DNA of 64,000 nt, taken from the NCBI GenBank assembly GCA_025526935.1, contig JAHLKD010000096.1, positions 147,831-211,830 on the forward strand. Reading direction: 5' to 3'. The stretch comes from Cladochytrium replicatum. Its lineage: Eukaryota; Chytridiomycota; Chytridiomycetes; Cladochytriales; Cladochytriaceae. Under the pieces are notes generated by a model. It had not been told where the DNA came from. It was given only the letters and a program-made list of their open reading frames with translations, and did not search any database. Within the stretch, counting starts at the first letter, position 1. Every line of letters starts with the position of its first letter. The position numbers and the translations under genes were made by a program. This document shows positions 11,053-61,848 of the stretch, one piece after another.

Positions 11053-11294
11053 GAGAGGAAGGATGGATAGCCAAAGGTCTGTATAGTGGGTTTAAAATAC
11101 ATTTTCATTGCTATGTGACATTCACTCAGGGCGAACAGTTAATTAATTGGTTAATTCAACAATAACCATTGAATCCCTCCGTCCGGCGGTCGCTCTCGGC
11201 ACCCACCGAGAGAGCAACCGCGTGTCACGAATTAATTATTAATAACTCAATAATTCAACGTGAACACCCGCACCCATCACGTGCCACCAGTCAT
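11053..11294. other. Intergenic region
   Basis: 242 bp between tandem genes. A/T-rich with a TTAATTAATTGGTTAATT run near 11139-11156 and a second TTAATTATTAATAA near 11231. No gene seen; it must hold the terminator of the membrane-protein gene and the promoter of the large downstream gene. Confidence 0.4.
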
Positions 11295-14200: not shown

Positions 14201-17200
14201 CCTTGATCAGCCCGTCGCTTACAACCATGCGTGGTGCAATGATGTCAGACGCGCTGGCTGCCTACCTGATGCTCATGGTCTCCGAAATTGGGCATCACTA
14301 CCACGTCTTCTACGAAACTGGGTGGGAGCTTCTAAAAGTGCTGGTTGCGCAAGACGCCGCTGGAGTCGTGATCAAAGTCGTGATGGAGCTGTTCCCAACG
14401 TTCATCGTGAACCACGGCGAGGCGGTTCTGATCGATCCAAGTTTCCGGAATTTTTTCATCACGTTTTTCAAGCACGGGGATATTCCGTCGAGCCCTACAC
14501 AGCGGGAGAGTTTGGATGTGCAAGCTGTGGGGATCGGAAAGCTTGCCAAGGTGCAGTGGCTCGGTAGGGATCTGAGCGCACTCGTGGATATGCACCTTTC
14601 GAAGGAGATTGTTAAAGATTCAGACTCGATCCGTGGTGCAATCGGTCTCAGAATTTGGCTCCGCATCGTGTCGTCTTCAGAAACCTGGGTGTACAATCGC
14701 AGAGTCTTGAAGATCGTGGATACATTGTGCGAAGCATCGTTTATCTGCGGCTTTCGGGACACGATCAGAACGTTCTTGAGCGCAGAATATGATCGCATGA
14801 TTCAGCAATATGCGCAAAAGGTGGAGCAGTCATCGCGCATTCGCATTATCGCGCCGATTGAAAACATCTATAGCCTCAGAACGAGTGTCGAGAATTATTA
14901 CTACGGCTACCCTTCGTTGATTTCATTCGCTGCTCCTCCTGAATCAACTCTGAGCCTGCTCTCTCGAACCCACGGACACCTTGATCTTGCATGGTACATT
15001 TACGAATCGCTGACGGTGGAAGTCCAAATCGAAAAAGAGTTTCGCACAAACGCTGCAACGATCCTTGGTGACCGCGCATCGTCGGCTTCAGTCACCGAGG
15101 TCAGCGGATTGGATGGTCCGCCGAAACCAATCTCTTCATTCACGATTTTCAAACTCGCGCAGCTTGCACTCAGCATCCCACCAGATCACCCGTTAGCGCT
15201 TATGGTTTGGCAGGTAAATGCAGTCAATGAGCTCACCACATAGTTTTTATCTCTAATTTTTTAAGACGTTTTTCTCATTATATTTTGAGCGCGCTCCTGT
15301 CGCTAGTGGCCATGGGAGCTATTTCCTCGGACAGAAATTAATGGATGGACAACCAAGGCTGGCGGACAGGCTGATTGAGCGATTGTCTGATGCGGGTCGA
15401 AAATGTTTTGATGTGCGATGTAGCAATTCTTATGGCGAGGTTGACCTTGGCGGTCTCTATTCTGCGATGCGTTCCTGGCTGACAAATCGAAAGTTGATCT
15501 CGCCGTTGATTATCGTTGATACACAGGCCTCTGAGTTGTACCCAGCATATTTGCGCGACGTGATGGACGGATCAGTACTATTCTCAGTTTATGCTTCCTG
15601 GGGTCTCGCTGAGGTGGCTTCTTCATCAAGACGAGGCTCTGTGACCAGAACAGAAGATGCTCCTCCATCAGAAGCGATAACACCACATCTAGATGTAAAT
15701 GCAATGGTTGGTGCCCCATTGCCTCCACCGGCCTTTGTTCTCAGCCAGCCGCTTTTGCCCAATGTTTTCAGCATGACTGCAGATAGTGTTCACAAACAAG
15801 TTCTGGATGATTTCAGCCTCCTCAAAAAGCGAGCTGTTGCCTTTGCAGCATTTGTTGCACAGCATGACGCACTCGATGTGGAGTACATGGATCTGCTCTC
15901 CAAACTTTACACCAATGAGATGGTTCGAGCTAGAGCTGAAAAACAGTGCATCTCTGGGAAGTGTCAGGAAGCTGCACTGTTTGAGTACGCAGTAGGAAAA
16001 GTGAAGTCAGTGCCAGATGTTAAAAAATTGCTTCGTGAGAATCGGCAGCAGAGTGAGATTCTTCTTCGAACAGACAATATGGATCCAAGAGCTTGCATCG
16101 CAGCAGTCAGGATCTTGCTCAGTATTGAATGGACCCAGGTTCAGTTGAGCACTGGCTCAAACAAGATTGTAGACATAGCAACAGACATTTTCTTTGAGAT
16201 CATGCAAGGTTTGAATAGTGAGGGCGTTGCTTTCCCTCCAATTAAGCAGATTGCCAAAGATATTGGTGAAGCATTTGGAAGCAAGTTCGTCTCTGGATCA
16301 GATGCCAACACCATAAAGCTTTTCAAACAGCTAAATCAAGTTGCACTCCCTGACTTCTATGTCCATGTGTTTACGCCAGCTGCAAGTCCTGAGCATTTTG
16401 CTGAAATGCTCCAGCAGGTAAATATCAATAGAAACATGTCACTAAATGAGTTAAGAAGCTGAACTCGTTGGCATAGATAATTGAATCCAGGCATCAACTT
16501 GGTGACAATGTTGCTGCTCAATATCTGATGCGTTTTGATATCAAAGTGTGGAGCAATAGTGATGCAGCAAGTCTTGAGATTAAAATCAAGTTTTGTGATC
16601 TGATCTTGGACTCACTCTTGAACTCTGATATTTCTGGTGATGTTTGTTCATGTCTGCACACACTCTTCAGAAACTGTGTCAAATACAACCCAAGCATTGC
16701 CATTCCAGTTCTAACTCACTTGCTTGGTCACAGTTCAAAGTCATTGAATGATACAACTGCAGCCATTATCGCTGAGTTTTCACTTGCAATCAATAATGAT
16801 CAGCCAATGGATGTGCACCTGCTAACATCTCCACTGCTTCAAGATCTCTTAATCTCTCGAGACCAGTCAATGAGCATCATCAGCAAACTCTCAGATCAGA
16901 TTTTGACAGCCCAGAAAGATAGACAAGTCGTATCTAGGCTCTGTGCATATGCATTCCTTGACCTTTTAACTTCAAATATCATATCAAAAGGACTATATGC
17001 AAACTTATCAGAAGTCCACTTTAGTGAGGTATGGAACCATGTTTCAGCATTTATATTGCTATGGTTTGGGCTGGATGAAAACAAGCCACATCAGCAAGTA
17101 TCTGCTAAATCAGTCTTAATGGCCGAGAAAGACATGGTTGATCATGCAGCAACAAGATTTTCTCAAATTATTTGCAAACTATGCATAAACTTTGCCACCT

Positions 17201-18879
17201 CTCAATCATCAGTTCTGGTTTGGCAGCTCTATAAGATTTTGTTAAACACAAATGTGCATGACGATTTTGTTTTCGCTGTGGAGAATACTACAAAAACCAC
17301 TGCTGCATGGAAAGGATTCATATTTGATTCATCAATAGCTCAAGACATCTTGCACCTTAACAGAGGGGAACATCTCAGTTTGTCTGATTTGTATTTCATC
17401 TGCAACTTGCTAACATATGCCGAGTGGAGGTATATTAAGGCAGGACAGCCAGACCAGCAATGCTTGGAAGTAGTTTTTATTGCAGCTATCAAGGCACATA
17501 AAATATTTCCCAATGTGACAGAGAGATTGCAATTCTTTGCTGCATCTGAACAATGTCTGCTATCTGTGTTGAACCCAGATAAAGTATCATTGGACTCATT
17601 AGAAAAGATAATTTCATTATTGCCATGTTTGTGGGAACCGGCAGTTTCAAATTTGACAATCAAACCTGAGCAAGAAAGTGTGCCTCCTGAGTCCTACCTG
17701 TTCTGCATGAAGCATTTAATGAATTTTTCTAATGCGCAGGATACTGCACTAAGTGAAGCAAAGTCAAGGACAGTGTATGATTACATTCAGAGAGTATTAT
17801 CGTCACAAGTCGAGAATAATGGACAAGCAGGGACATATATTGAAACAGAACTTGGTCACGTTATTGAAGAATTCATGATAATGCTTGACACAAAGCATGT
17901 GAATGTCGGTGGTGTGAATGTCAGTGATCTACTCCGATTACAGATGGAACAGCTTTTCTCTCTCCTCAACAAATGCGCAAAAGGTGGCCTTATATCTTTC
18001 CAAGTGTCTGACGGATTGAGAAAGGGTTTAAAAAAGTCTTTGCAACCCCTTCCATTGATTGGAGTTATCTGCAGTGTTATCTCAGCAGTTGAGCAAATGG
18101 CAGTGATGCTTGAAGTGTGCATTTCCAGATACTTTGAGCTGAATCGAGACCCATCAGAGTGGGTTACAATAATCAACAACTTGGAAGTACCAGAGCTAAA
18201 CGCTGAGGCTTTCATTCGACATTGTTTGCGACATGGGCTTGTGTTCACACTCTATGCACATGCACAACAAAGACTACGAGAGATTGGACCGAATTATGAC
18301 CTACGAATTATGATAGGAGAGCAAGTGGCATCATGGATTGGGACAATTATTGTTGATACCATTGATGAGGGGGACGAAGCAAAACTACTCATTATAATGA
18401 ATTTGTTCTCTGATCTTCTTTCAGAAGAGCTCTCTAGTTTGCCACTATTGGAGCATCATTCCCGTTTGCGGTCTCATTTGCCAAGTCTAGGCGAACGATT
18501 CTTGCGCTGGGGAGAAGACAGGTCACAGCACGGGCTGTGGGCAGCAATAGGGTTTGGACCAAAGTCAACTCTATCAGTTGATTTTCGCTTCTCAGCTCGA
18601 TGCATTGGAACTTTTATTGGAACTCGCCTACTTGATATCAGTGGGTCAGGGGAAACATCAGCAGAAATGAAAATCGAGGCCAACACGCAAAGATCAAGAC
18701 TACTTAACACTCTATCATCGCTTCAGCAGCAGAGAGAGTACGAGCCACTATGGCACAAAATGCCTGATTTAGTTCAGATTTTAGAGGATCCTGCCAAGCC
18801 TCTTGCATCTCTGTCTGAGCTTATCGATACCCTGTTGCGCGTGGTATTCCCTGATTGGCATCTTCACAACTTGCTGTAA
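11295..18879 (+). CDS. Very large helical protein, EPG5-like candidate
   Basis: Five exons, 11295..11489, 11542..14051, 14106..15213, 15266..16417, 16477..18879, all phases consistent, giving about 2455 aa. The start MEQLLVKHRKRK is followed by a basic, Ser/Pro-rich disordered stretch to about residue 160; the rest is alpha-helical with few low-complexity parts and no membrane segment. Size, the basic N-terminus and local features such as LALMVWQTFFSLYFERAP (spanning the 15213/15266 junction) resemble EPG5, the large tether that joins autophagosomes to late endosomes/lysosomes in animals. I recalled this likeness by eye and could not align it, so another giant helical-repeat protein remains possible. 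The third intron ends TTTTTTAAG; the second begins GTTCGT, a weak donor forced by frame. Exons before about 15.3 kb use GC-rich codons, while 15.7-18.9 kb is clearly AT-richer, so the gene has two compositional halves. Confidence 0.55.
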
Positions 18880-20792: not shown

Positions 20793-22180
20793 GATAGCAA
20801 CATCATCCGATTCAGGGCATGATGCAGAACAAAGGTCTAGTCGCAAAGTATCAGACACGTCAGAGCTAGGACTGGTTATAAGGGTGAAGATATGAAAATC
20901 ATTCATGCTTTGAATCTTAACACCAAACGCATAAGCGAATATTTTCATTTTACTTTTCATGAGGGAGTATTTGTTGGCTTAAACCCAACATCACAAACTT
21001 TAAATGACCTCACCGAAGACTATCCTATTCCTCAGGGTCAACATTTTGATATTTCAAATTTACCTGATATGAATAGCTATAATGACAATACTACAGACTC
21101 AGATTCTGATGATAGCGCTAACACCTCATCTGATGAGGAGTATCCCAACCAACAATTTTATCATCGAATGGATATCTCACATATGCATGTTACTCCTATG
21201 TCCCAACATGATTCAAATGTTGATGACGAGCACGATACCACCAACGACTATCACCATTCGTTAAACATGAACGATGACACTTATGTACCACTTTCTGTAC
21301 AACACGAACAAGAACAAAATGAAGATGATTCCCAAAGTGATTTGGAAGATTTACAATGGATTGGTGAAGATGATGACAACGATTATGGATTTGTTGCACA
21401 CAAAGCCAAAAATCGCAAACTTAAAGGCAAACAACCTATGGTTACTCCAACAAACAGATTTCATCCCCAGCGAAGACATCCTTTGTTGAGACGTAATATC
21501 CCCAATGTCAATGTAAATGAGAAAGCAAAATCGAGTACACCCGACATTCCTATACCTCAAGGACACTTGAGAAGTATTCCCAAAACAGTCCAGGAAGCTA
21601 TGTCGCGACCTGATGAATGGCCATACTGGCTTGCAGCCATGTGTGAAGAAAATCAACAACTTATCAATTTGGGAACATTGAACAAACGCATCTTGCCAAA
21701 TGGGAACAACCTTCTCACTGGCAAATGGGTTTATTCATACAAACTTGATGAAGATGGCAACATCATCCAATTCAAGGCACGATGGGTAGTTAGAGGGTTC
21801 TCCCAGATACAGGGAATGGATTTCGACAAAACCTATTCTCCTGTGGCGAAAACCACTACAATTCGATTACTAGTTGCTCTTGCTGCAATTATCAAATTAC
21901 ACATCTATCAATTTGACATTACAGGAGCATATCTCAATGCATGACTTGAGGAAGATGTTTATGTTGAAATGCCTCATGGATTTACAGAGACTGACGAATC
22001 TGGCAATCCATTTTGTCAAAAGCTTATATGGTTTACATCAAGCTGCTAGAGAATGGTACAAATGCCTCTGGGCGAAATATGAAGACATGGGATACATCCG
22101 TGATCTTTCAGATGCTTGTCATTTCTGGCAAATGAAATCATCTACTCACAGTTCCACTGTGAAAATACGTGAACACACTA
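20783..22180 (+). mobile_element. Copia family A fragment, integrase C-end to reverse transcriptase, decayed
   Basis: A plus-strand Ty1/copia fragment. After a 100-bp scrambled start it matches the integrase end (HFTFHEGVFVGLNP), then an acidic linker, then the reverse transcriptase (WPYWLAAMCEENQQL, GKWVYSYKLDEDGN, FKARWVVRGFSQ, FDITGAYLNA). The long open frame is 20892-21944. It stops at 21942 right after YLNA, and the next part (EEDVYVEMPHGFTETDESGNP, REWYKCLWAKYED) has lost about 10 bp near 22012 relative to other A copies in the window. It ends abruptly at REHTT, where LTR type 1 sequence begins. No gag, protease or LTR of its own is attached. Confidence 0.88.
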
Positions 22181-28111: not shown

Positions 28112-30352
28112 CACCCCCTCAGTCATTAGATAGGTACAACCGAGAGTATCACTCAACCGATCATAACTTTCTGTAAATGCTGAAGTTGATATTCTATTGA
28201 AATAAAGGTGAGTTGTATGGACATCGCCAGCCGGTCGTTCAAGATAGTATATTAAGTGAAGACTGACTGACTAGCCCCAACGAGCCCCTGTGTTTAAGGT
28301 ATAATTTACTTCCAAGAGGTTTAGTTAAGATGTCCGCGATCATATCAGAAGTATCCATATGGTGTAACTCCTGATGTTTCTGTTCAACTTGGAGATTCAC
28401 AAATCTCTCGCGAACGTCCATGTGTTTAGTCCGTTTGTTGTTGAACAGATTGCTTGCGATAGACTTGGTGGATTGATTGTCTTGCCATAAACGGAGCGGA
28501 TTGAACGACGTAATTCCGATACCCGTCATAAGATTTTTCATCCACTTCATCTCACGCGATAGTTCGTTCAGCGCATACAGTTCGGCTTCCGACGACGAGG
28601 CTGCAATAGTCTGTTGTCGAATCGACTGCCAACTGATTGCCGCATTAGCGAACATTACCACGTAACCGGTTCGTGAGTATCTATCTGCATCGCCCGCCCA
28701 GTCTGCATCGGCATAACCTTGTGGGTTGTTAGCCAAATCAAACATGTAGAGACCGTCGGGTCTTAGCATCGGAGACGTGATACCAGTCCGTGTATAGTGT
28801 AAACCGTAATCCCAAGTACCGAGTAAATATCGTTGTAATCGATAGAGAGCCTTTGATTCTGACTGTCGAGGATCAATCTGATGTTGTGCCAAAATATTGA
28901 CTGCGTATGAAATATCCGGTCGTGTCTTAGTCGCCACGTACGATATCTTCATTAACATTGATCGAAATTGTGTTGCCTCGGCATCGGACAGTGTTGGTGT
29001 GGTCTCATCAAAGATATATGATTTTGACATCGGTGTTTTGGTCGGTTTGATGTTGGTACCCCATAAATTCGCTTCTTCGAGAATCTTCTTTACGTACAAT
29101 GCATTGCTAAGGAAATATCCTTCCGTTGTCTGCAATAACTCCATTTTCAGAATCCATTTCGCCTTCGAAGTACTGCCTACTGTGAACGAAGTTTCCAAAT
29201 CGGTCTGAAACCGATGATATGCGTTTGGATCTGTGGAAAAATGTAGTATATCATCGACATGAACGGTAGTGTGTTCGCGGGTATTATTTGTTGGATTGTA
29301 TCGCCAGAAATGACAGATGTCTGCAATATTCCGCACGAAACCAACACTGAGATATTGTTTCCAAAGAGTTTTGTACCATTCTCGAGCTGCCTGGTGTAGA
29401 CCGTACAGACTTTTGATAAGTCTGCAGACGATGGGTCGATTCTGGAAATCTACTCGTCCGAAACCATGAGGGAGTTCGACGTAGTTCTCTTCTTCCAGTA
29501 TCGCATTGAGATATGCACCCTTGATATCAAACTGGAATATGATCATGCCGACTAATGCTGCTAATGCAATCAGAAAACGGATCGTGGACGTTTTCGTAAC
29601 TGGAGAATAGGTTTCATCGAAATCCAATCCTTCAATCTGTGAAAATCCTCGTACGACCCAACGTGCTTTGAATCGAGTAATATTGCCATGTTCGTCAAGC
29701 TTATATGTGAAAACCCATTTGCCCGATAATAAATTCCGTCCATCAGGTAAAAACGTTTCGGCCCAAGTATTGTTGCCGACTAGTTGTGTAACTTCCTCCT
29801 TCATCGCCGCTAACCAGAATGGAGCCTCATCGGATCGTGATAAAGCCTCACGAAGAGTCTTTGGTGCAGTCCGTATATTTCCATTCGCAATTGGTTGTGT
29901 TGGATATGAGGAATCGGCCTTCAGGGTCCAATCAATATTAGGAACGGACCGGGTAAACAAGGAATTTTGTTTCCTTTTGGCGTTCGACAAATTTGCACTT
30001 GCTTGACGTTTTCGTTTTCTTGCTGCATACGCTTCGTCGACATCTTCTCCAATGAATTGAAGATCACTTTCGAGTTGTGCATCATATTCCTCTACAGGAG
30101 ATACGGAAGACAAATTCGGAGATTCTTCAGTAATGGATTGTGGAGTCGATAAATCAGCATTTGGATCATAATCAGCATCGTCTGGGTCATCATCGTCTAG
30201 TCCATGTAAATGTTCAACAACATGCATGTCACCGGCTTCTTCTAAGCGGTAACATGTGGGGTCGTCGTTTATATCCTCATCGATTTCTTCGTCTGCAACG
30301 GTAGAAATCGGGAAATTGTCTGAGACAAACTCAACAGTCGTCTCTTGCACCC
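28112..30352 (-). mobile_element. Copia B 3' half, intact reverse transcriptase/RNase H frame
   Basis: The frame 28239-30623 is open from the acidic linker after integrase (GVQETTVEFVSDNFP) to the end of RNase H (ADILTKPL). It holds APFWLAAMKEEVTQLVG, FKARWVVRGFSQIEG, FDIKGAYLNA, HVDDILHF, ASSSEAELYALNEL, DNQSTKS and KHMDVRERF. Compared with the near-complete element it keeps five bases near 29950 that the other lacks, so this copy shows the unbroken reading. The 5' half (gag, protease, integrase core) is absent: at 30352 the frame passes into LINE endonuclease sequence, giving a chance 794-codon fusion frame. Confidence 0.92.
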
Positions 30353-31990
30353 CCTGACTAGAAACGAGACGGAAATCAGAAGCTCTACAAAGACTGCGAT
30401 TGATCAAGACTCCCACACCAGCCCGTCGTGTACCCGATGACCCAGGAGAAAAACGAGTGTCAAAAATCAAATCTGGAGAAGGCAGCGGGTCTAAAGGAAA
30501 AAGGTGTGTTTCAGTCAGGAGCAGAAAAACAATGTGATTTGCGCGCATAAAGCGAAACAGTGAATCAAGAACTCCAAAGCTCAAATTGCGACAATTGAAG
30601 GTACCAACTCGAACACTAATCATTGACGAAGATGGGTTGAGCGAGGCTGACGCGCAATCCCGCGGGCACTGTCCAGCACAGTTTCCTGAGCATCCATGGG
30701 GAGCTGACCACGGACATACAGGAAAATAGCAGGATCAGTAACTGAACTGAGGATATGTGCATATCTCTTGTGAACAACTTCCCTGACCGCAGCCTCCCGC
30801 TGCTCCAAAGGCAGAGTAGAGGCTCGGCGAAGAAAGTCAGGGTTTGATTTGTCAGCGGAAGCTTCCTGGGTGGAGAAGTGCGCACGGAGAGCAATTGCGG
30901 TTGAGCGAATACAGATAAAGGAAGCAATGTTGCGACCAACGAAACTGATGTGGCGGATACCACGCACCACCTCATCGCCCAAGAGAGCCCTCAGCATGGT
31001 CCGCACAAAGCCGAGCCGCTGTCTCATGATGTCCTTGATGTACACAGTGGTCAAATCATCCACACGGGCCTGAAGATCAGCAGGTGGGGAGACCAGCAGT
31101 GGAGAGGTCGGAGGATAGAATACGACAGGCCGAGGGCCACGAAGGCTGACATTCGAAGTGGGGTCACGACCAGCAAGGGCAGTCCTGACAGCTTCTGTAC
31201 GAGATTCAGCACTCAGTGTGGAGAGACTCTCAAGCACACGGGCACGGGCATTGGCAGCAGCAGCGGCATAAGTGCGTGGACCACGAGGTCCACGTGGGGC
31301 AGGTCGACTAGACGGGGGGCGAGGGCCAGGAGCACCAGAGTTCCCAAGATCGTCCTGAATTGAAGGATTACCATGCAGTTGTCTAGGGGGAAGGCACACA
31401 GGCGCAGCCACATCATCATGGCGGGAGACAGGGGCAACCGGAGGTGAAGGCGAAGGCAGCGGCCTCCCAAAGCGACCCACCAGATCCTCGGCCATATCAC
31501 GACAAACACTAAAAAATTCAGCAGGAGTGTCCCTCGGCAAATGTGCAAGCATAGGATCCAGCATCGCCAACGGATCAAAGGTTGCACAAACAGATCGCAT
31601 CTGAGTGAGAACGACACGGAGATCGGCCAGAGATGCAACACTCGATGGAGCAGCCACAGCAGCAAGAACCCGGACACCCGGCAGATGTGATCGGGAACGA
31701 GAACGGGAGCGACCACGGGGCAATTCATGTTCAGCAGGTCTTTTGGCGCGTTGGTCACGTGATCCGAAGTCACGTGATTCGGCATTTTCATCCTCCCCCA
31801 TATTCACATCATCAGCCCAGTGAATTGGAGAGGCAGGAGCGGAGAATGGAAGCTGTGGAGCGGAATTTTCAACAGAGGAGGCACGGGGGCGCGAACGGGC
31901 CTCAAAAATCATGGTGCCACCAGAAAGTCCATCTGGGGGCATGGCGGGGGGTGCGGCGCATCAGGCGGCTGCGCATGCGGAGCGCTGGGA
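30353..31990 (-). mobile_element. LINE (non-LTR retrotransposon) 5' end, truncated by copia B
   Basis: A minus-strand LINE with ORF1 (30620-31942) and the first ~90 codons of ORF2 (30623 down to 30353). ORF2 starts ISVRVGTFNCR, then LLLTETHLFPLDP, the Asn and Glu motifs of the apurinic-type endonuclease at the start of LINE ORF2. Everything after GVGVLINRSL is replaced by copia B. The ORF1 stop and ORF2 start overlap as ATGA (30620-30623). The 5' end lies near the GA microsatellite at 32011. No reverse transcriptase of this element remains in the window. Confidence 0.88.
30620..31942 (-). CDS. LINE ORF1 protein
   Basis: An unbroken 440-codon frame. Residues 1-130 are Ser/Arg/Pro-rich with an RSRSRSRS run, the middle has helical stretches (LADLRVVLTQMRSVC), then Pro-rich linkers, and residues 280-420 form a conserved-looking domain (DDLTTVYIKDIMRQRLGF, ALLGDEVVRGIRHISFVG). 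ORF1 proteins bind the element RNA and aid reverse transcription. No CCHC knuckle is visible, which differs from many fungal LINE ORF1s. The stop codon overlaps the ORF2 start by ATGA, suggesting termination-reinitiation. The start used is the first Met; the next is 10 codons on (MIFEARSRP). Confidence 0.75.
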   Translation of the reverse strand: MPPDGLSGGTMIFEARSRPRASSVENSAPQLPFSAPASPIHWADDVNMGEDENAESRDFGSRDQRAKRPAEHELPRGRSRSRSRSHLPGVRVLAAVAAPSSVASLADLRVVLTQMRSVCATFDPLAMLDPMLAHLPRDTPAEFFSVCRDMAEDLVGRFGRPLPSPSPPVAPVSRHDDVAAPVCLPPRQLHGNPSIQDDLGNSGAPGPRPPSSRPAPRGPRGPRTYAAAAANARARVLESLSTLSAESRTEAVRTALAGRDPTSNVSLRGPRPVVFYPPTSPLLVSPPADLQARVDDLTTVYIKDIMRQRLGFVRTMLRALLGDEVVRGIRHISFVGRNIASFICIRSTAIALRAHFSTQEASADKSNPDFLRRASTLPLEQREAAVREVVHKRYAHILSSVTDPAIFLYVRGQLPMDAQETVLDSARGIARQPRSTHLRQ

Positions 31991-33000: not shown

Positions 33001-34190
33001 ATGTCAAATCGCCGAAACAACCGAGAACTCTACTCGCTTGATCTTAGCTTAACGGAATCAGAAGCTCGAAGACGACACCTCGAAGCTTACCAGCAGCAAC
33101 AGCAACTTCACTCGCCGAGCAGCACTGACACTGACACGTCTGACTAGGCTGACACTCCAACGCAAGAAGCACCATCGACCTCTATGTTTTCCATCGGACG
33201 GTCATTAGCAACCTTACTCGCAACAACCGCGTATCAAGCTCTCGCACCAGCTCAGCAACCAACAGCCCCGGCTACACAAGAACTGCCACAAACGCAAGTC
33301 ACCCAATCTCCGATCAACGTTATCGCGATGGCCAGCTCCAGGAGCAACCCTACCAACACCGTGTCTGCTACTACATCAACAAACAACGAAATCTCCACCT
33401 CCGGATGGTCTCGCCCGCCTAAGCTCCAAGGCCTCGAGTTCCACACCTGGCAGTTCTGAATGCAGTGGTGGCTAACTAGCCGAAACCTCTGGTATGGAAT
33501 CCTGTATACCGACCTTGTCGAAGCAGACATGTCAGTCACACAGAAGCAGCAAAACAGACAAGCCTTCGCCGCAATCCTGGAATGCCTCTCGGACAAGGAC
33601 ATTGTTCGCATCGAAGGAGAAACTCTCGCCAAGCGTATCTGGACAATCCTGGAAAATGCATACAAGTTAAGTGCTCCTGTCACCTTGCAGCGGCTCAATG
33701 AAGAGATGGCATCGCTTACCAAAACAACCTCCATGCCTTTCGAAGAGTTTGCCATGCAAATTCGTTCGCTCGCTCGGCGCATTAACGCAGTCGCCAAGAC
33801 TATTGTGAAGGGTTCGGCCATGGCAGCTGACACTTGGTCTGAAGCTCGCATCATCACTCAGATCCTTAGTGGTTTGGGTGCCGAGCACATCGGTTTTGTC
33901 TCTGCCTGGTACACCCAAGCGGAGAGCGAGCAGACCCTCGACAACCTGACGCGTCAATTGGCACAACTCGACATTCACATGGATCGCCATCGCCGCCAGC
34001 AGGGAAAGACACAAGCAAGCATATTAAAAGCGCAGACCGGACTCTCCGCGCAGCAGCAGCAGCGAAATCGAGGTCGAAACAATCACGCAAGAAGGATCCT
34101 CGTCGTTGTCACTACTGTGGCATCCAAGGTCACATACAAGCAGACTGCCACCGTCGCGCTCGCGACACCGCCACCGGACAAGACACTCGA
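33001..34190 (+). pseudogene. Copia C gag with nonsense codons and a frameshift
   Basis: Starts at ATG 33001 (MSNRRNNRELYSLDLSL). TAG at 33145-33147 and TGA at 33457-33459 interrupt the same frame; the body then runs from 33460 (SLTKTTSMPFEEFAMQIRSL, ILSGLGAEHIGFVSAW), typical of the copia gag helical domain. Near 34095 the frame changes: the CCHC knuckle CHYCGIQGHIQADC at 34105-34150 is in another frame. Three lesions make this gag non-functional. The same region carries Gln- and Asn-rich codon runs. Confidence 0.85.
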
Positions 34191-34199
34191 CCAGCCAAC

Positions 34200-36070
34200 A
34201 TGCGCAACCTATCGGGAAGCAATGGCAACAACAACGGCAACAACCGCGGTCATCGAAACCAAGCCAACATCTCAAACACCAATAACAGCAACAACAGTCT
34301 CACCCACTCTGCCGGCTCGTCTCCAAACAATGTCGAGATGCCAGCTGCCGCCCTAGCCGCGGATACGTCCGGGGAGCGAACATTCACGCCATTCTTCGCG
34401 TGCGTCGGATCGAGCAACGACGACCGGGTGACTCGATCACACAGGGAACTTCACGAGATCCCTACTCTTCTGTCGATCCCTTGTGCTGTCGATCGAATTG
34501 AGCACACTGTTTTGTCGGCTCGTTCCAGTGACGAGATCTCTTGGTATCTCGACTCAGGAGCGACGACACACATCTGCAAGGATCGTGCAGCGTTTGCCAA
34601 TCTCCGGAGCGTTCCTCCAGAGACTATCCTAGTCGGGAACAACGAGACGGTCACCGTCACTGAACGAGGTTCGGTCAAACTGATGTTTGATTTGAATGGC
34701 AGAACTAACAATCTTGAACTTACCAATGTATTTTACGCCCCGACTTTCTCCCACAACTTGGTATCTGTTGGTCGCCTCGTGGATGCGAGCCTCGAGGTGA
34801 AGTTTGCCAAGAACGTTTGCGACGTCCGCTATCCGAACGGGGCGCTTTTCTTTACTGCTCGCCGGGACATAGGCCGCCTTTGGCGCCTACAATCTGCTCA
34901 ACTCTTCAGAAAACCCTCCGCCTTTCTCGTCACGACCACGCAAGCTCAACTCGCTCAGCTCTGGCATGCCCGCACCGGTCACCCTGGTGTCAACGCCTTG
35001 CGTCAGCTTCCTCATCTTGTGGACGGTCTCAGTGTTCAAGCTTTCAACGATGCCGACGTCCACAGTTGTGCGTCCTGTCAAGCTGCCAAAGCGCGCAAAC
35101 AGCCTTTTAATGGCTCCCGTCGCCGTGCAACAGCACCCCTCGAACGTATTCATCTCGACCTCGCCGGCCCCATCTCGCCTCCCTCACTCACCGGAAATCA
35201 GTACGTCGCAGGTTTGACCGACGACTGCACCTCCGGTCGTTGGGTGCTCTTCTCCTCGGACAAGCAGGCTCGTACGGTCAACACGAGCTTCGACACCTGG
35301 CGACGACACGCTGAGAGACAGTCCGGACAGCTGGTCAAGTCCATTCGAACGGATGGTGGACGCGAGTTCGTTGGGGAATTCAAATCGTTCCTGAGCCAGC
35401 TCGGGAAGATGCCACTGTCGTTGACTCCAAGTGGGTGTTCAAGCGCAAAGTACTCGCCAACGGGGCGCACAATCGATTCAAGGCCCGCATTGTTGCTCGA
35501 GGTTTCACGCAACAATTTGGTGTTGATTTTGACGAGGTATTTGCGCCTGTCGTCTCGTTTGTCACGTTCCGTCTCCTCGTGGCACTTGCTGCCGCGATGG
35601 GATGGGTGATGCGAAAGGGAGATGTGAAGCAAGCATATCTCAACGCCATCTTGATGCACACCATCTACCTCAGGATCCCTCCCGGTTTACCGTTCTCGGA
35701 AAATCGCAAGAAAGCCTGGCGTCTCCACAAGTCACTCTATGGACTCCGTCAGTCTGGCCGAAATTGGAACAAGGAGTTCGACTCTAAGCTTACCTCAAAC
35801 GGATTCATACGGTTACGGTCAGATTCTTGCGTTTGCCTTCTACCTGGTAACGGATTTGCGGAAACAGTCATCATCGCAATATTCGTGGACGACGCGTTGG
35901 TCATTGGAACAATCCTGGATCTTCGTAACTCTGCGGTCGCTTTCGGTGCACCTTCCTTTGTCAACGCAACGTCCTTCATCATGGGCATAGTGATTGGGCG
36001 AGGAACCGTTCCTTCGGCGAGCTTGATGAAGCGCCGTTTGTACTACATTTTGAAACTGGAAGTTGCATAA
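34200..36070 (+). pseudogene. Copia C pol, internally deleted
   Basis: Frame 34200-35400: protease with WYLDSGATTHICK, the pre-integrase domain with LWHARTGHPG and CASCQAAK, and the integrase start with LDLAGPISPP and SIRTDGGREFVGEF. At about 35405 the sequence jumps inside one clone of DNA to the reverse transcriptase in another frame (35435-36070): FKARIVARGFTQQFG, GDVKQAYLNA, SLYGLRQSGRNWN, IFVDDALVIG. The end of integrase and the start of reverse transcriptase are deleted, and everything after about 36065 (RNase H, 3' LTR) is missing. Family differs from A and B in sequence, GC content and primer site. Confidence 0.88.
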
Positions 36071-39013: not shown

Positions 39014-40263
39014 TCAGTAACTTGATGAGTGAGAAGGCGGGCGATATCCTCGGACGGGCTGCATCTGGATATGTTGTGCTGGAATGGAATATTGGGAACG
39101 ATCGTAAGCCTCATAATCTTCCCATGGGCCAGAAGACCGGGCATTGTGTCTGTGACGGGAGGGTGGTTGGCCCATTGCAGGTGGTCTTTGAGCAGCCATT
39201 GCTTGAGCTGATAAAGTGTCGTCAATAATATCGTGCACACCGTCCTGAATGCGCTGCCATTCTTCGAGCCGACGGCGTTGTTCACGTTGTATTTCAAGCT
39301 TACGCTACAAAGTCATACGAATTAGCCATGTGAGAGAAACTATAAATACAAAAGCGTTTGCCTGATGGGATCGGAAGTGTTGGCGCATGTTATCGTGTCT
39401 ACTGAACCGGGAGGTGCAGTTCGGAATCGGGCAAGCAAATGGTTTTATATTGGTATGTGTACGCTCATGACGAGATAAATGCCCGCTGGAGTGAAATGAT
39501 GTTCAGTGAATTGTTTGCCCATTTTCTTGTGTACGTCCACTTACCTTGTAGAGAACGCCTTCCCGCATGCACAAACATGTTTCTTTACCTTTCCGTCCTC
39601 ACCTTTCCGAGAGGAAGCAGTAACACCCGCATCTGGGGTTTGCTTTAAGCTTTTGATCTTGGTAGGTGGAGGAGATGCCGAGCTAGGAGATTGTGAATGT
39701 TGCTGTTGTTGCAAGTCGGCGGAACTGCGTTCAGATTGTGGATGACGCGAGTAAGCGTGATCAATTTCGCCTCCATTTGATACTCTATTGCTCGCTGAAT
39801 AGGGATAGTCCGAGTATCCAGAAGGTGGTGCGACCATAGTGGGATCAAATGTGCTGTCGTATAGTGGGGGAGGCAAACTGTATGCATCGATTGTTTGTGA
39901 AAACGATGATGTGTGGCCGCGTGCATAAGGCTCGTTGGGATTTCGCACGTAAGGTTGCTGATGTGCCACTGCAGGTGAATGAAACGACGGATCGGAGACA
40001 CTGTGTCTGGGTGGCACATCAGACACGGTACACTCCCGAATGAGCGAAGATATCGGGGGAAGCTGCTCTCCAAACCCAAAGCTTGGACCAGGTCGATACA
40101 TAAGCACGGATCGCGAATCATTGGAGACATTCATTGGGGGATAAGCATTTTGATGCATTTGCCCATACGAGACTGGATATGCCTCTTCATAGATGCTCGG
40201 TGAGACTTCAAGTGGATCAGTAGTCCGGATCTGGGAAGGGTGCTCCACACTAATTCTTGACAT
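39014..40263 (-). CDS. C2H2 zinc-finger transcription factor, Nrg1-like
   Basis: Exons 40263..39545, 39485..39362, 39304..39014 give 377 aa. Residues 1-225 are disordered (Ser, Pro, Tyr, Gln). Two tandem C2H2 fingers follow at about 228-283: HVCACGKAFSTSGHLSRH and ACPIPNCTSRFSRHDNMRQH, the arrangement seen in fungal Nrg1/Com2-type repressors and activators, with the first intron splitting finger one after FSTS. A charged helix rich in Arg/Gln/Glu then leads to a His/Ser-rich tail. The second intron (39305-39361) begins GC, the second GC-AG intron in the window. DNA-binding is secure; target genes cannot be told. Confidence 0.88.
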
Positions 40264-40703: not shown

Positions 40704-42244
<1,541 letters not shown>

Positions 42245-43847
42245 ATGGCATACGCTGGCCAGGCATACGGGAGAGGCTGGGAGCTCAACCGCGATCAAAC
42301 GGTCGGGTCACCAGGCGCCTCCTTCGCTACGTCAGCAGCGCGGATGAAGAGAATAGACGACGTACAAACAAACTTGTCTGCAGAGATCGGGATGGGTAGC
42401 AACGAGTTTAGCCATTATGCAGAGTACGATACGCACCACTCGTACGCAACTTACTCGCCCGGAGGCACCCAAATTCACAACCAGCAGAAGCATGTTCCGA
42501 GTAAACGGGTTTGTACATGTGCTTTTGCAGATTGATTGACGAACGATTAATCTCTTTATCTTTGTAAGCAGAGGCGGTCTGACGAGTCTCCTGTTGTGGA
42601 CGAAAGCCCATTAATGTCTCACCTCCCAGCGCTGCCAATGTCACCGGGTGTTGGGACTGTCGCAAGACCCCATGTCCCGGCAGTGTTTCAGTGCGTCCAA
42701 TGTCTGACAATCCTTGCAGACTCCACGGGTTCCGCTGCGTATCACGCAGGTAAGAGACCTGGTTACTCGCCGTCATACCATTCTTACATACCAAAATAGA
42801 TGCAAACTTTCTGACGCTCGAAGCCATATCTCAGTCAGTCGATGTCGTTGAGCCACCACAGATTTGCGTTGATGGGTTTCTACGCAACTGCTCTTATAAA
42901 GCTCTGCGGTGCTCGCACTGTGGAACCATTGTCGGAAAATGGGTGTATGACACTCCAGAGTTTCTGAACCACATTCTGTAAGTCAGTCGATATCTTGTTT
43001 AACGTTTTTCTGCCTTTACTCGTTATTCAATTTTAAACTCGTCGTCAGGAATCGGTTTGTCCTGGAAATGACAGCAATTCGGCCTTATCACCTGGGAGAG
43101 AACACTTTAACCATCACAGTGAACGTTCCCGAGCCTTCCCCGGCCCCTCCCCCACCAGCTGTACAAATTCCAAACTTGGGGGTCCCGTCGCGGTTATCAA
43201 ACTCCAGCTCTCGCGGATATTCCGACCACAACGATATCTCCTCGGGCGGTAGTGATTACAACGCCGGGTATGACGAATCCTACGAGGAAGCAACTCCCCG
43301 TGACCATTCTCGCCTGAAGCGAGAGTCCATGGAGGGTCAGCAGCCACCGGGGTCATCCAAACGCGGCGGCTTGGACTTCAAGACCTACCCTTGCCCCAGA
43401 CCGTACTGCAGCAAAGTGTACAAAAATCCTGGAGGACTCAAGTACCACCTCACCAGCGGCACTTGCGAACTCGACTACGATGCGATACCGGCAAAGGGAG
43501 GATCGGCGATCCCGCCAAACCCGCACGAGAGTGGGAGTGACAATGAAGACGGAGCAGATGGAATCGAGGATGGTGGCGAAGGAGGGTCTATTTCGCCCAA
43601 TAGTGCCGGACGGAAGATCAAAGTTACTAAAAGACCGTACTGGTGTGTGATGCCCGGATGCTCCAAACGATACAAGAATCTTGCGGGATTGAAGTACCAT
43701 GCGAAGACGATGCATCCCAAGTTGCGATTGGAAGATATCAGGGGTGGGCGGGGGGTGACAACGCCGGGATCTCCCACAGGACTCGGAAATGAGGAAGGAA
43801 GGGAAATGTCACTTCCGGGCGAGGAAATCGGTGAGCAGGTGTATTAG
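42245..43847 (+). CDS. Mis18/yippee-like domain fused to Sfp1-like zinc fingers
   Basis: Exons 42245..42508, 42572..42749, 42800..42977, 43049..43847, 472 aa, all phases consistent. Residues about 127-235 look like a Mis18/yippee zinc-ribbon beta fold: first CxxC at 129/132 (FQCVQCLTILADS), second CxxC at 185/188 (RCSHCGTIVGKWVYDTP), and RFVLEMTAIRPYHLG at the end, as in Mis18 proteins that prime centromeres for CENP-A loading. The C-terminal half has two zinc fingers of the Sfp1/JAZF1 style, YPCPRPYCSKVYKNPGGLKY (C322, C327, H340, then C346 in the fourth place) and YWCVMPGCSKRYKNLAGLKY (C406, C411, H424, H429), linked by acidic sequence. Both domains lie on unbroken, in-phase exons, so the fusion is not an artefact of joining two genes unless the 42978-43048 intron is misread. 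Inference: a chromatin or transcription factor; a centromere role is unproven. Confidence 0.75.
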
Positions 43848-56650: not shown

Positions 56651-59600
56651 TCAAGATAGTATATTAAGTGAAGACTGACTGACTAGCCCCAACGAGCCCC
56701 TGTGTTTAAGGTATAATTTACTTCCAAGAGGTTTAGTTAAGATGTCCGCGATCATATCAGAAGTATCCATATGGTGTAACTCCTGATGTTTCTGTTCAAC
56801 TTGGAGATTCACAAATCTCTCGCGAACGTCCATGTGTTTAGTCCGTTTGTTGTTGAACAGATTGCTTGCGATAGACTTGGTGGATTGATTGTCTTGCCAT
56901 AAACGGAGCGGATTGAACGACGTAATTCCGATACCCGTCATAAGATTTTTCATCCACTTCATCTCACGCGATAGTTCGTTCAGCGCATACAGTTCGGCTT
57001 CCGACGACGAGGCTGCAATAGTCTGTTGTCGAATCGACTGCCAACTGATTGCCGCATTAGCGAACATTACCACGTAACCGGTTCGTGAGTATCTATCTGC
57101 ATCGCCCGCCCAGTCTGCATCGGCATAACCTTGTGGGTTGTTAGCCAAATCAAACATGTAGAGACCGTCGGGTCTTAGCATCGGAGACGTGATACCAGTC
57201 CGTGTATAGTGTAAACCGTAATCCCAAGTACCGAGTAAATATCGTTGTAATCGATAGAGAGCCTTTGATTCTGACTGTCGAGGATCAATCTGATGTTGTG
57301 CCAAAATATTGACTGCGTATGAAATATCCGGTCGTGTCTTAGTCGCCACGTACGATATCTTCATTAACATTGATCGAAATTGTGTTGCCTCGGCATCGGA
57401 CAGTGTTGGTGTGGTCTCATCAAAGATATATGATTTTGACATCGGTGTTTTGGTCGGTTTGATGTTGGTACCCCATAAATTCGCTTCTTCGAGAATCTTC
57501 TTTACGAACAATGCATTACTAAGGAAATATCCTTCCGTTGTCTGCAATAACTCCATTTTCAGAATCCATTTCGCCTTCGAAGTACTGCCTACTGTGAACG
57601 AAGTTTCCAAATCGGTCTGAAACCGATGATATGCGTTTGGATCTGTGGAAAAATGTAGTATATCATCGACATGAACGGTAGTGTGTTCGCGGGTATTATT
57701 TGTTGGATTGTATCGCCAGAAATGACAGATGTCTGCAATATTCCGCACGAAACCAACACTGAGATATTGTTTCCAAAGAGTTTTGTACCATTCTCGAGCT
57801 GCCTGGTGTAGACCGTACAGACTTTTGATAAGTCTGCAGACGATGGGTCGATTCTGGAAATCTACTCGTCCGAAACCATGAGGGAGTTCGACGTAGTTCT
57901 CTTCTTCCAGTATCGCATTGAGATATGCACCCTTGATATCAAACTGGAATATGATCATGCCGACTAATGCTGCTAATGCAATCAGAAAACGGATCGTGGA
58001 CGTTTTCGTAACTGGAGAATAGGTTTCATCGAAATCCAATCCTTCAATTTGTGCAAATCCTCGTACGACCCAACGTGCTTTGAATCGAGTAATATTGCCA
58101 TGTTCGTCAAGCTTATATGTGAAAACCCATTTGCCCGATAATAAATTCCGTCCATCAGGTAAAAACGTTTCGGCCCAAGTATTGTTGCCGACTAGTTGTG
58201 TGACTTCCTCCTTCATCGCCGCTAACCAGAATGGAGCCTCATCGGATCGTGATAAAGCCTCACGAAGAGTCTTTGGTGCAGTCCGTATATTTCCATTCGC
58301 AATTGGTTGTGTTGGATATGAGGAATCGGCCTTCAGGGTCCAATCGATATTAGGACCGGGTAAACAAGGAATTTTGTTTCCTTTTGGCGTTCGACAAATT
58401 TGCACTTGCTTGACGTTTTCGTTTTCTTGCTGCATACGCTTCGTTGACATCTTCTCCAATGAATTGAAGATCACTTTCGAGTTGTGCATCATATTCCTCT
58501 ACAGGAGATACGGAAGACAAATTCGGAGATTCTTCAGTAATGGATTGTGGAGTCGATAAATCAGCATTTGGATCATAATCAGCATCGTCTGGGTCATCAT
58601 CGTCTAGTCCATGTAAATGTTCAACAACATGCATGTCACCGGCTTCTTCTAAGCGGTAATATATGGGGTCGTCGTTTATATCCTCATCGATTTCTTCGTC
58701 TGCAACGGTAGAAATCGGGAAATTGTCTGAGACAAACTCAACAGTCGTCTCTTGCACCCCCTGATCCCCGGTTGGTATTTGATCAACATCGAAATATGTC
58801 CCGGCCTTCAGTGGATATTGTACCGTAAGATCGTCGAGTAACTGTCGGGTAGGATTATAACCAACAAAAACTCCCTCGTGGAACGTAACATGGAAGTATT
58901 CGCCTATTGTGTTTGTCCGAAAATTGAGTGCTATGACGATCTTCAGGTCTTCACCCTTGTATCCGAGAAACAGACCTAGTTCAGACTTGTCTCGGATTCT
59001 GCGCGCCAACCTTTGTTCGTGTGAGATCCACAAACTAACGAGTGTTCCAAAGGCGTGGATAGTTGCCAAATCTATCCGCTTGTCAAGGTAAGCACAGTAC
59101 GGAATCGCATTCACAGCTGAATGGAAAGTAGCGTTCTTGACGACCGCAGCGTATAGGATGGAGAGTTGCACGAATTGAAGTGTTCGTGGTAGTCCAGCTT
59201 GTAGCAGCATCGCGTCCGACATATACTTGATCGATTGTATATTCCGCTCTGATAGACCATCGAGTTCCTTTACTGACGGAGGAGCTGGGTGGACGCGGAT
59301 GCGAGGAATCTTGGTATTGCACCATTGGATCAACCGTTTAGTAATCAATTCTCCTGAATCGGAACGTAGTTCAGCAACGTGTAATGGGTGATTGCGATTT
59401 TCCACATCAGCGATATGTCGAATCATACTATCCACCGCATCACTCTTTCGATTCAGGAAGTAGATTGTGATGAAACGAGGTTGTTCGTCGACAATGATCT
59501 GCCAATATCTCTTCTTCTGTCCGTCGTAGATTAAACGTACGACATCGGAAAACAGACGGAAAAGTTTCCTCGGAGCTCGACTTATTGTAGAATAAATCGG

Positions 59601-61061
59601 CTTCTGCTTCAGCTTCGTGCGACTACAGACCAAACAATTCTGCATAATTGATTTGTTGACAAGATTGAATGCATCCGGTTCAACCTTGGGCATTTTGATG
59701 TTGAGCTTCTCTGCCGTTCGAAAGATTGTCCGTAAGTGGATGTGACCAAACTGCTGGTGTAACTTTGCAAGTTCGTGTACTGTCACTGGCGATAAGTTGG
59801 TGCTCACTCCAACTGTATCTTGAGATGCTCGTTGACATTCATCATCGTTCGTTTGACGAATGTTGTTGTCTGACATTACATCGAGACCCATCGCGTGAGA
59901 AGATCGTACACCGGACGTAAAGTCCATCGACTGATCGAGACCTTCTGCGGATACCGCTACTGCTTTAGCTCGTTGAGCAATCACATGCCGCGGTTGGTGA
60001 GTTCCGACGGTACTAACATCAGCATAGAGATAGTACAAATCTCTTTCCCGTCGCCCAATAATAACGTGTTCATCCGTATCACCATGCGTGAGGATAACCT
60101 TGTCTTTGGTGAAACTCACAATGTCCCCGGAGTCTCCAATGATACTACACACTGATGCAAGTGTGTCTTCGAGATCAGGAACATAAAGTGCGTTGTGTAT
60201 TATCTTAATTCGCCCATTGGGTAAAACTACAGATACATCTCCAAAACCACAAACTGGAATTGTATGACTATCCGCTAGTTCCACCACGTCCTCGTCATTC
60301 GTATACGTCAGCGAACTAAAGGCATGACGATTAGGTGTCATCCAAACAGTTGCGCCTGTATCAAGCAAACCCACACGATCCTTTGCTTGAACATGTACAC
60401 GGACAACCTTCTGTGCCGAGTGTGCGTTCACTATCGAAAACATATTTCCGATGTATGTGTCAGCATCTTTATCAACAGAAGTAGGTTGGGTAAGGTCAAA
60501 GATTACCTTCTTGGTCAACACCGGTTTGGCGGTAGATTCGTCCTCCGACGAATCATCACCTGCATCGCCACGGCTGGCAATGAATGCACGAAAATCCGTG
60601 TCTAAACAAAGACTCTTTGCAGTGAGATAGCGTTTACACGCCGACTGCTTGTGTCCTCGTTTGCCACAGAAATTGCATGTGAGATCTGTCTTCTTTGCAG
60701 AAGAAGATGTGGACGACCTGGAGTCCTGCGACTGCCTGGTCCGAGTGGAACTGCTACTCCCACCGCTACTGCCTGAGCCACCCGAGGCACCCTGCTTACG
60801 GCATTGAGCATTGGTGTGAGATGAGTTCGGATGCAAGGTACAAATATCCTCCGACTTCGCAACCTTGGCTTTCGCTTTCGCCTTCGCTTTCTTCGCCTTT
60901 GCCTTCATGGCCTTCTTTGTCCCATTCGGCCCACCGGCATCCATGGTGACGTTGAGTTGGACCAATTGGTTGAGGTCGGTCAAGATATTTGACACTGTTT
61001 CGAAGTAATGCGTTGGCTTTTGGTGGAATGGTCGCGGAGCATTCGGGATTTGCAGCATCAA
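56651..61061 (-). pseudogene. Copia B pol with a 5-bp frameshift
   Basis: Frame 61061-58350: Lys-Ala run (KAKAKKAKAKAKAK), CCHC knuckle CNFCGKRGHKQSAC, protease LLDTGATVWM, integrase zinc region and core (DVV, SDSGE and GLSERN supplying Asp, Asp and Glu), EYFHVTFHEGVFVG, acidic linker to SLFTRS. Frame 58492-56651: reverse transcriptase (FKARWVVRGFAQ, FDIKGAYLNA, HVDDILHF), TKTRPDISYAV, RNase H (ASSSEAELYALNEL, DNQSTKS, KHMDVRERF) and ADILTKPL. Near 58354 five bases present in the 28112-30352 copy are missing, which shifts the frame between linker and reverse transcriptase. A second shift separates gag and pol near 61000-61060. Confidence 0.93.
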
Positions 61062-61848
61062 TTGGATCTTGTATTAACGCCGGTTCCCATTCGGCATACG
61101 CAGAAGTGATCATTTTTCCGAGAAAAGGTACGAGGGTCCGTAGTTCAATTGTCTGCATCGTGATTTTTGCGACTAACCGGTTTAGTAGATCCTTGATTAC
61201 GAGTTCGTCCGGTAAAGAGTTCAGTTTGAGTTCGAATAACTCAGTGAGGTCGGTCACAAACTGCTGAACGCTTTCTGCCGACTGACCGTTCGTACATTTC
61301 AGATCTACCAGCCGTTGCTCCCACATAGACGATTCGATCGGAGCTTGACCGCCAGCACTGAAAATTCGGCGAAGTCCATCGACTTTGCCTTTTGCTGACG
61401 CATAAGCTCTGACTCGATTCATGTCGCGTTTTGGGAAACATTCGCATAGAATTCCAACTGCGACGTTATTGTCCGCTTGTTGTGCACGGTAATCTTGCAT
61501 CTCAGCACGATATTGCGTACGTAAGTGACTGTTGTGTGTGACGATCGCCAAATGTTCACGTAGTTCTGCTTCCCATTGTGCTCGTGCTTCGTTAGCAGCT
61601 CCGCCAGCAGCTCCGGCGATGACTATCGGACGCTGTGGGCGATTTCCTTCCGCCTCGTAATTCGGATTATCAGGAAGAGCCATTGGTTCTTGGAGAAGCA
61701 TAGTGCCAGCGCCGCCACGTAAGTTTGCGTAAGTCTGCACTTGTTCCATGTACAGATCGAAATCCTGCAGCGTTTTACCGGTGAATGGCTTCGGCCGCGA
61801 AGATGTGGCGTCATTCGATCCTGAACCCATCTTGTCGTTGTTGTCCAA
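60796..61848 (-). CDS. Copia B gag
   Basis: ATG 61848: NDKMGSGSNDATSSRPKPFT, then LQDFDLYMEQVQTYANLRG, AECF-like ILCECFPKRDMNRV, WEQRLVDLKCTNGQSAESV and LNSLPDELVIKDLLNRL, a typical copia capsid-type helical domain. After ATIPPKANAL the annotated frame loses family character, while the +1-shifted pol frame continues with HYFETVSNILTDLNQLVQLN and the Lys-Ala nucleic-acid-binding run, so the natural product probably crosses frames there. That could be a one-base mutation or a programmed shift; one copy cannot decide. The sequence between the 5' LTR and ATG is only 33 bp. Confidence 0.8.
   Translation of the reverse strand: MDNNDKMGSGSNDATSSRPKPFTGKTLQDFDLYMEQVQTYANLRGGAGTMLLQEPMALPDNPNYEAEGNRPQRPIVIAGAAGGAANEARAQWEAELREHLAIVTHNSHLRTQYRAEMQDYRAQQADNNVAVGILCECFPKRDMNRVRAYASAKGKVDGLRRIFSAGGQAPIESSMWEQRLVDLKCTNGQSAESVQQFVTDLTELFELKLNSLPDELVIKDLLNRLVAKITMQTIELRTLVPFLGKMITSAYAEWEPALIQDPIDAANPECSATIPPKANALLRNSVKYLDRPQPIGPTQRHHGCRWAEWDKEGHEGKGEESEGESESQGCEVGGYLYLASELISHQCSMP

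Follow-up and report, generated by a model that had tools for sequence, protein, structure and literature searches.

The window, a stretch of 64,000 nucleotides from Cladochytrium replicatum, contains on its forward strand a gene (positions 42245-43847) whose four predicted exons join in frame to encode 472 residues ending at a stop codon at 43845-43847. These coordinates, exons, introns and stop are the same as those of the in-phase four-exon gene put forward in a preliminary description of this DNA. The predicted protein combines an N-terminal Mis18 (Yippee-like, MeDiY) domain with two zinc fingers. Exon 1 (42245-42508, 264 bases) contains the start codon and encodes a less conserved N-terminal stretch, and a basic KRRR patch (residues 87-90) is encoded across the junction of exons 1 and 2. 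Exon 2 (42572-42749, 178 bases) encodes the first CxxC pair of the Mis18 domain (C129 and C132) together with the dimer residues V126 and I135, exon 3 (42800-42977, 178 bases) encodes the second CxxC pair (C185 and C188), and exon 4 (43049-43847, 799 bases) encodes the final strand of that domain with dimer residues Y220 and L222, a linker, both zinc fingers and the stop. The intervening introns of 63 bases (42509-42571), 50 bases (42750-42799) and 71 bases (42978-43048) are all bounded by GT..AG, the third interrupting the Mis18 domain. As delimited by Pfam, that domain spans 42680-43106 over exons 2 to 4, with introns 2 and 3 within the span. Zinc finger 1, of the C2HC type, is located at 43392-43466 and zinc finger 2, of the C2H2 type, at 43644-43715, both on the forward strand.

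The organism's own genome (50.5 Mb in 198 contigs) was searched with the Pfam family PF03226, and all nine candidates were scored. Three matches were obtained: the gene in the window, a second copy of the fusion on contig C107, and a gene on contig C140 which, by its signature, we take to be a plain yippee. In the C107 copy the four exons and their phases are unchanged and the encoded protein is 90% identical to that of the window copy; the coding sequences agree at 1196 of 1410 aligned bases, and the three introns are 71%, 64% and 55% identical over their aligned bases. The evidence for the putative splice sites is the sequence together with this second genomic copy. Across 20000 base shuffles the 796-base coding part of exon 4 never stayed open, ruling out a chance frame. 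Two separate transcripts, which the preliminary description had considered, would cut the Mis18 domain since the predicted exon 4 contains both its last strand and the two fingers. Although the three introns are predicted from the sequence, it is highly improbable that the fusion is an annotation artefact in which two adjacent genes were misread as one, and this explanation was rejected, because the single open frame of exon 4 bears parts of both domains and the layout is repeated in the second copy.

The spliced protein matched the Yippee-Mis18 family in a Pfam search with 77 bits (E 1.5e-21) over residues 125-226, the curated cut-off being 26.6. The four zinc cysteines lie inside this match, in agreement with the earlier proposal of two CxxC pairs in a Mis18/yippee-like fold, and that reading of the N-terminal region can be sharpened from the family to the Mis18 type. 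The best matches among solved structures were to fission-yeast Mis18 (5hj0 at 4.6e-11 and 5j6p at 1.7e-10), followed at a greater distance by human Mis18-alpha (7sfz at 4e-6), which ranked after a GLI finger chain matching finger 2. With a profile built from the two fusion copies and the fission-yeast and human Mis18 domains, Mis18 chains came first by construction; the next match was a helicase at E 0.033, and all remaining matches had E values of at least 0.75. In a comparison scaled to a database size of 177635, the domain of the fusion protein matched fission-yeast Mis18 with E 5.9e-12, whereas the genome's own yippee, compared as two exon pieces, gave E 3.1e3 and thus no detectable similarity in spite of membership in the same Pfam family. 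Since the one scores so strongly and the other not at all, the N-terminal domain is, judged by sequence comparison, of the Mis18 type and not of the yippee type. The identity of the whole protein as a yippee (YPEL) was rejected on the E of 3.1e3 and on the length of 472 residues.

Fission-yeast Mis18 shares with the fusion protein the MeDiY domain, the four zinc cysteines and 31 of 99 aligned residues. According to PMC4818781, the face through which fission-yeast Mis18 dimerises is formed by residues V22, I31, Y114 and L116, changes to V22, I31 or Y114 disturb dimerisation, and a change to I31 or Y114 lowers association with centromeres. All four positions are identical in the alignment with the fusion protein, where they correspond to V126, I135, Y220 and L222. 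In fission yeast, the joint change of the pocket residues Y74, Y90, T105 and S107 results in failure to complement. Here the fusion protein differs, with three of the four pocket residues unlike those of fission yeast and only one identical, compared with two identical in human Mis18-alpha. The human protein, which is not known to carry zinc fingers, has the same domain, the same zinc cysteines and three of the four dimer positions.

A further difference from both known proteins concerns the region that follows the Mis18 domain. Mis18 orthologs, including those of fission yeast and human, carry a C-terminal alpha-helical domain (PMC4818781), and the C-terminal coiled coil of fission-yeast Mis18 is the part reported to bind Mis19 in PMC6677171. 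No such helical domain was visible, as judged by composition, behind the Mis18 domain of the fusion protein, and this protein carries the two zinc fingers. Residues 227-315 are 24% proline plus glycine with no run free of these residues longer than 12, and the longest such runs are 7 in residues 347-398 and 8 in residues 430-472. A stretch of 24 residues free of proline and glycine was found at residues 25-48, on the N-terminal side of the Mis18 domain. The protein is called here a Mis18-domain fusion and not a full Mis18.

The spacing of finger 1 is C322-x4-C327-x12-H340-x5-C346 and that of finger 2 is C406-x4-C411-x12-H424-x4-H429. Pfam finger models scored under their curated cut-offs (23.0 versus 25.2 for PF00096 and 23.8 versus 27 for PF17017). 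Both fingers fit the helix motif KN-x-x-G-LKYH, which we take to be that of Sfp1/JAZF1-type separated finger pairs. The nearest finger pairs in the genome, also C2HC followed by C2H2, were found on contig C16 (46% identity over 123 residues, E 3.0e-27) and contig C21 (44% over 124 residues, E 4.6e-26), and several further similar finger genes are present. The fingers, designated Sfp1-style in the preliminary description, are thus of one type with those of other paired-finger genes of the genome, and the C16 and C21 genes are here presumed to be Sfp1-like. The C16 gene differs from the fusion in that its N-terminal region is long and contains a further finger-like element, and in that the 699 residues scanned gave no PF03226 match. 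Helix position 2 is glycine and alanine in the fusion fingers versus asparagine in both fingers of the C16 gene; since this position differs in both fingers, the binding preferences of the two finger pairs may differ.

The genome was also searched for genes with which a Mis18-type protein might act. Scm3 was found at one locus (44.9 bits, cut-off 24.3). Two loci, on contigs C35 and C59, encode a divergent histone H3 whose loop is longer and which has a tryptophan, as in CENP-A; from its sequence it is presumed to be CENP-A-like. Six matches were obtained to PF12265, the RbAp48-type H4-binding domain, of which those on C6 and C28 were strong (68-69 bits) and four on C3 and C30 weaker; this type is tied to Mis16 by family (PMC7618776). 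With the fission-yeast Mis18 domain as query only the two fusion copies were retrieved, and weakly (E 0.037 and 0.056), and human Mis18-alpha as query retrieved nothing from the genome. No separate Mis18 gene was found by the PF03226 family search together with the exon-wise search with the fission-yeast query. The genome returned no match to the CENP-C cupin, a result of little weight with a model that matched 4 of 14 control genomes, all under the cut-off, and none to SANTA, also of little weight with 0 of 14 control genomes matched; either search can overlook a domain that introns interrupt. Absence of M18BP1 is not claimed because the KNL2 of chytrid fungi is mentioned in PMC9210943. Scans of viral contigs and prokaryote genome contigs revealed no relatives of the fusion, as expected for a eukaryote gene. 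IFT57 was matched by five stretches at a single locus on C97, of which three exceeded the cut-off, and once on C29; the model also matched 3 of 14 prokaryote controls, in each case under the cut-off. Based on these matches a flagellum is probable for the organism, now or in its past. Taken with the short introns, the genome size and the sequences of histone H3 and of the fingers, they point most likely to a chytrid-like fungus.

Comparison of the two fusion copies revealed an overall dS of 0.750 and dN of 0.053, with a dN/dS ratio of 0.071 distributed unevenly along the protein. The ratio was 0.009 for residues 121-230 containing the Mis18 domain, in which the copies differ by two non-synonymous changes, and 0.028 and 0.022 for the fingers; it was 0.063-0.157 for the N-terminus, linkers and tail, residues 1-120 having the value of 0.157. 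These low ratios indicate that the Mis18 domain and the fingers are both under strong purifying selection in one protein. The value for the Mis18 domain is near that for the core of the CENP-A-like pair (dS 0.73, dN/dS 0.006), and the Sfp1-like pair gave a dS of 1.0 and a dN/dS of 0.08, with 0.023 for its fingers. The dS values of all three pairs make it unlikely that the two fusion copies are a young haplotype pair. Several finger genes and the CENP-A-like gene occur as similar gene pairs divided between two contigs (C16/C21, C23/C114, C35/C59 and C7/C18). This pairing suggests a large-scale duplication, and a duplication of the whole genome is plausible, three gene pairs having been measured.

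The frames neighboring the two fusion copies are collinear and inverted relative to each other, over approximately 40.7-49.7 kb of the window and 31.9-23.0 kb of C107, of which 20 kb was examined. An allantoicase frame (PF03561, 168 bits) adjoins the fusion gene on the opposite strand at 40707-41495. On C107 the stretches matching allantoicase are apart, at approximately 31.4-31.9 kb and, on the opposite strand, at 36.5-36.7 kb, with repeats between them. A frame at 39308-39502 on the reverse strand, with C2H2-finger matches under the cut-off (34.4 versus 40 for zf-H2C2_2), likewise has a match close to the C107 fusion copy. A repeat-like stretch at 18.9-20.9 kb of the window is common to C107, its 18.9-19.9 kb part occurring there twice (approximately 34.2-35.7 and 37.1-38.5 kb) and its 20.0-20.9 kb part once (approximately 33.3-34.3 kb). 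Three frames from this repeat gave no Pfam match, and a reverse-transcriptase frame follows it at 20841-21941. Copia-type retrotransposon frames, with RVT_2, Pol_BBD and an integrase match under its cut-off, are located at 28242-30734 (reverse strand), 33870-35606 (forward strand) and 56654-61073 (reverse strand), the first and last in AT-richer parts of the window. Of five long forward-strand frames within 9010-18876, one of them at 15257-16462, the other four (680, 926, 382 and 800 residues) were scanned and were without a Pfam match at E 0.001.

That the protein dimerises, binds DNA, localises to centromeres or takes part in CENP-A loading is our inference. The reading we put forward, which we hold to be evenly poised between right and wrong, is that a dimer of the Mis18 type supplies CENP-A loading with a DNA anchor of its own. 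The fusion gene would encode the organism's Mis18-type protein, in which a flexible linker and the finger pair replace the helical domain. The Mis18 domain would form a dimer by the face used in fission yeast, providing two finger pairs per dimer, and the fingers would tether this dimer to DNA or to a partner in chromatin. The Mis18 domain would then help to bring the Scm3 chaperone with CENP-A to the place held by the fingers. In fission yeast, direct contact of Mis18 with nucleosomal DNA is reportedly important for its recruitment (Zhang 2020, as cited in PMC9210943). A stronger form of the proposal is considered unlikely: in this lineage DNA sequence would guide where CENP-A is deposited, the sole Mis18-type protein having sequence-reading fingers, and the position of centromeres would be partly encoded in DNA although CENP-A and Scm3 are kept.

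The main rival is that the protein is a paired-finger, Sfp1-like transcription factor in which the Mis18-type domain was reused for dimerisation or cofactor docking and has no role at centromeres, CENP-A loading then proceeding with no Mis18 at all or with one diverged beyond detection. This is a possibility to be taken seriously, although it falls short of being probable. The fingers are closest in the genome to those of a long, low-complexity paired-finger protein, that of C16, and belong with several similar finger genes, the linkers are rich in disorder-promoting residues, and a basic patch is present, all as might be found in such a factor. The largely changed pocket and the unseen helical domain point the same way, and these two features weaken the case for a function at centromeres. 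On the other side, that case is modestly favored, and the transcription factor disfavored, because the dimer face is kept in full and the family search and the fission-yeast query revealed no other Mis18-type gene in a genome with CENP-A-like and Scm3 genes.

It is also conceivable, but quite doubtful, that the protein is a general chromatin regulator which, together with Mis16/RbAp48-type proteins, controls histone acetylation at many sites selected by the fingers, among them centromeres. The loci encoding RbAp48-type H4-binding domains are consistent with this role, as is the work of Hayashi from 2004 that reportedly linked histone deacetylation at fission-yeast centromeres to Mis16 and Mis18. 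However, in fission yeast no direct contact of Mis18 with Mis16 was seen without Mis19 (PMC6677171), and the coiled coil that Mis19 binds is not visible in the fusion protein.

No Mis18 domain joined to zinc fingers was found among the best matches in open PubMed Central full text, so that the statement in the preliminary description that no described protein has both was uncontradicted there; this concerns the literature only, and the same architecture may well be present in protein databases or in other eukaryote genomes under automatic annotation. A Cryptococcus paper (PMC3744442) lists a yippee-like gene and, separately, finger genes, and the accessible part of PMC13001451 contains only background on Mis18 in fungi. 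How the Mis18 complex is recruited where species lack M18BP1 is described as unresolved in PMC7618776, which proposes binding to the spindle-pole-body protein Sad1 as one answer for fission yeast. If the proposed part in CENP-A loading is true, fingers built into the Mis18-type protein could give another answer to how it is recruited. If the protein acts at centromeres, its fingers would also provide a direct experimental handle on CENP-A loading. If it is instead a transcription factor, the Mis18 dimer would be a module that can be reused away from centromeres.
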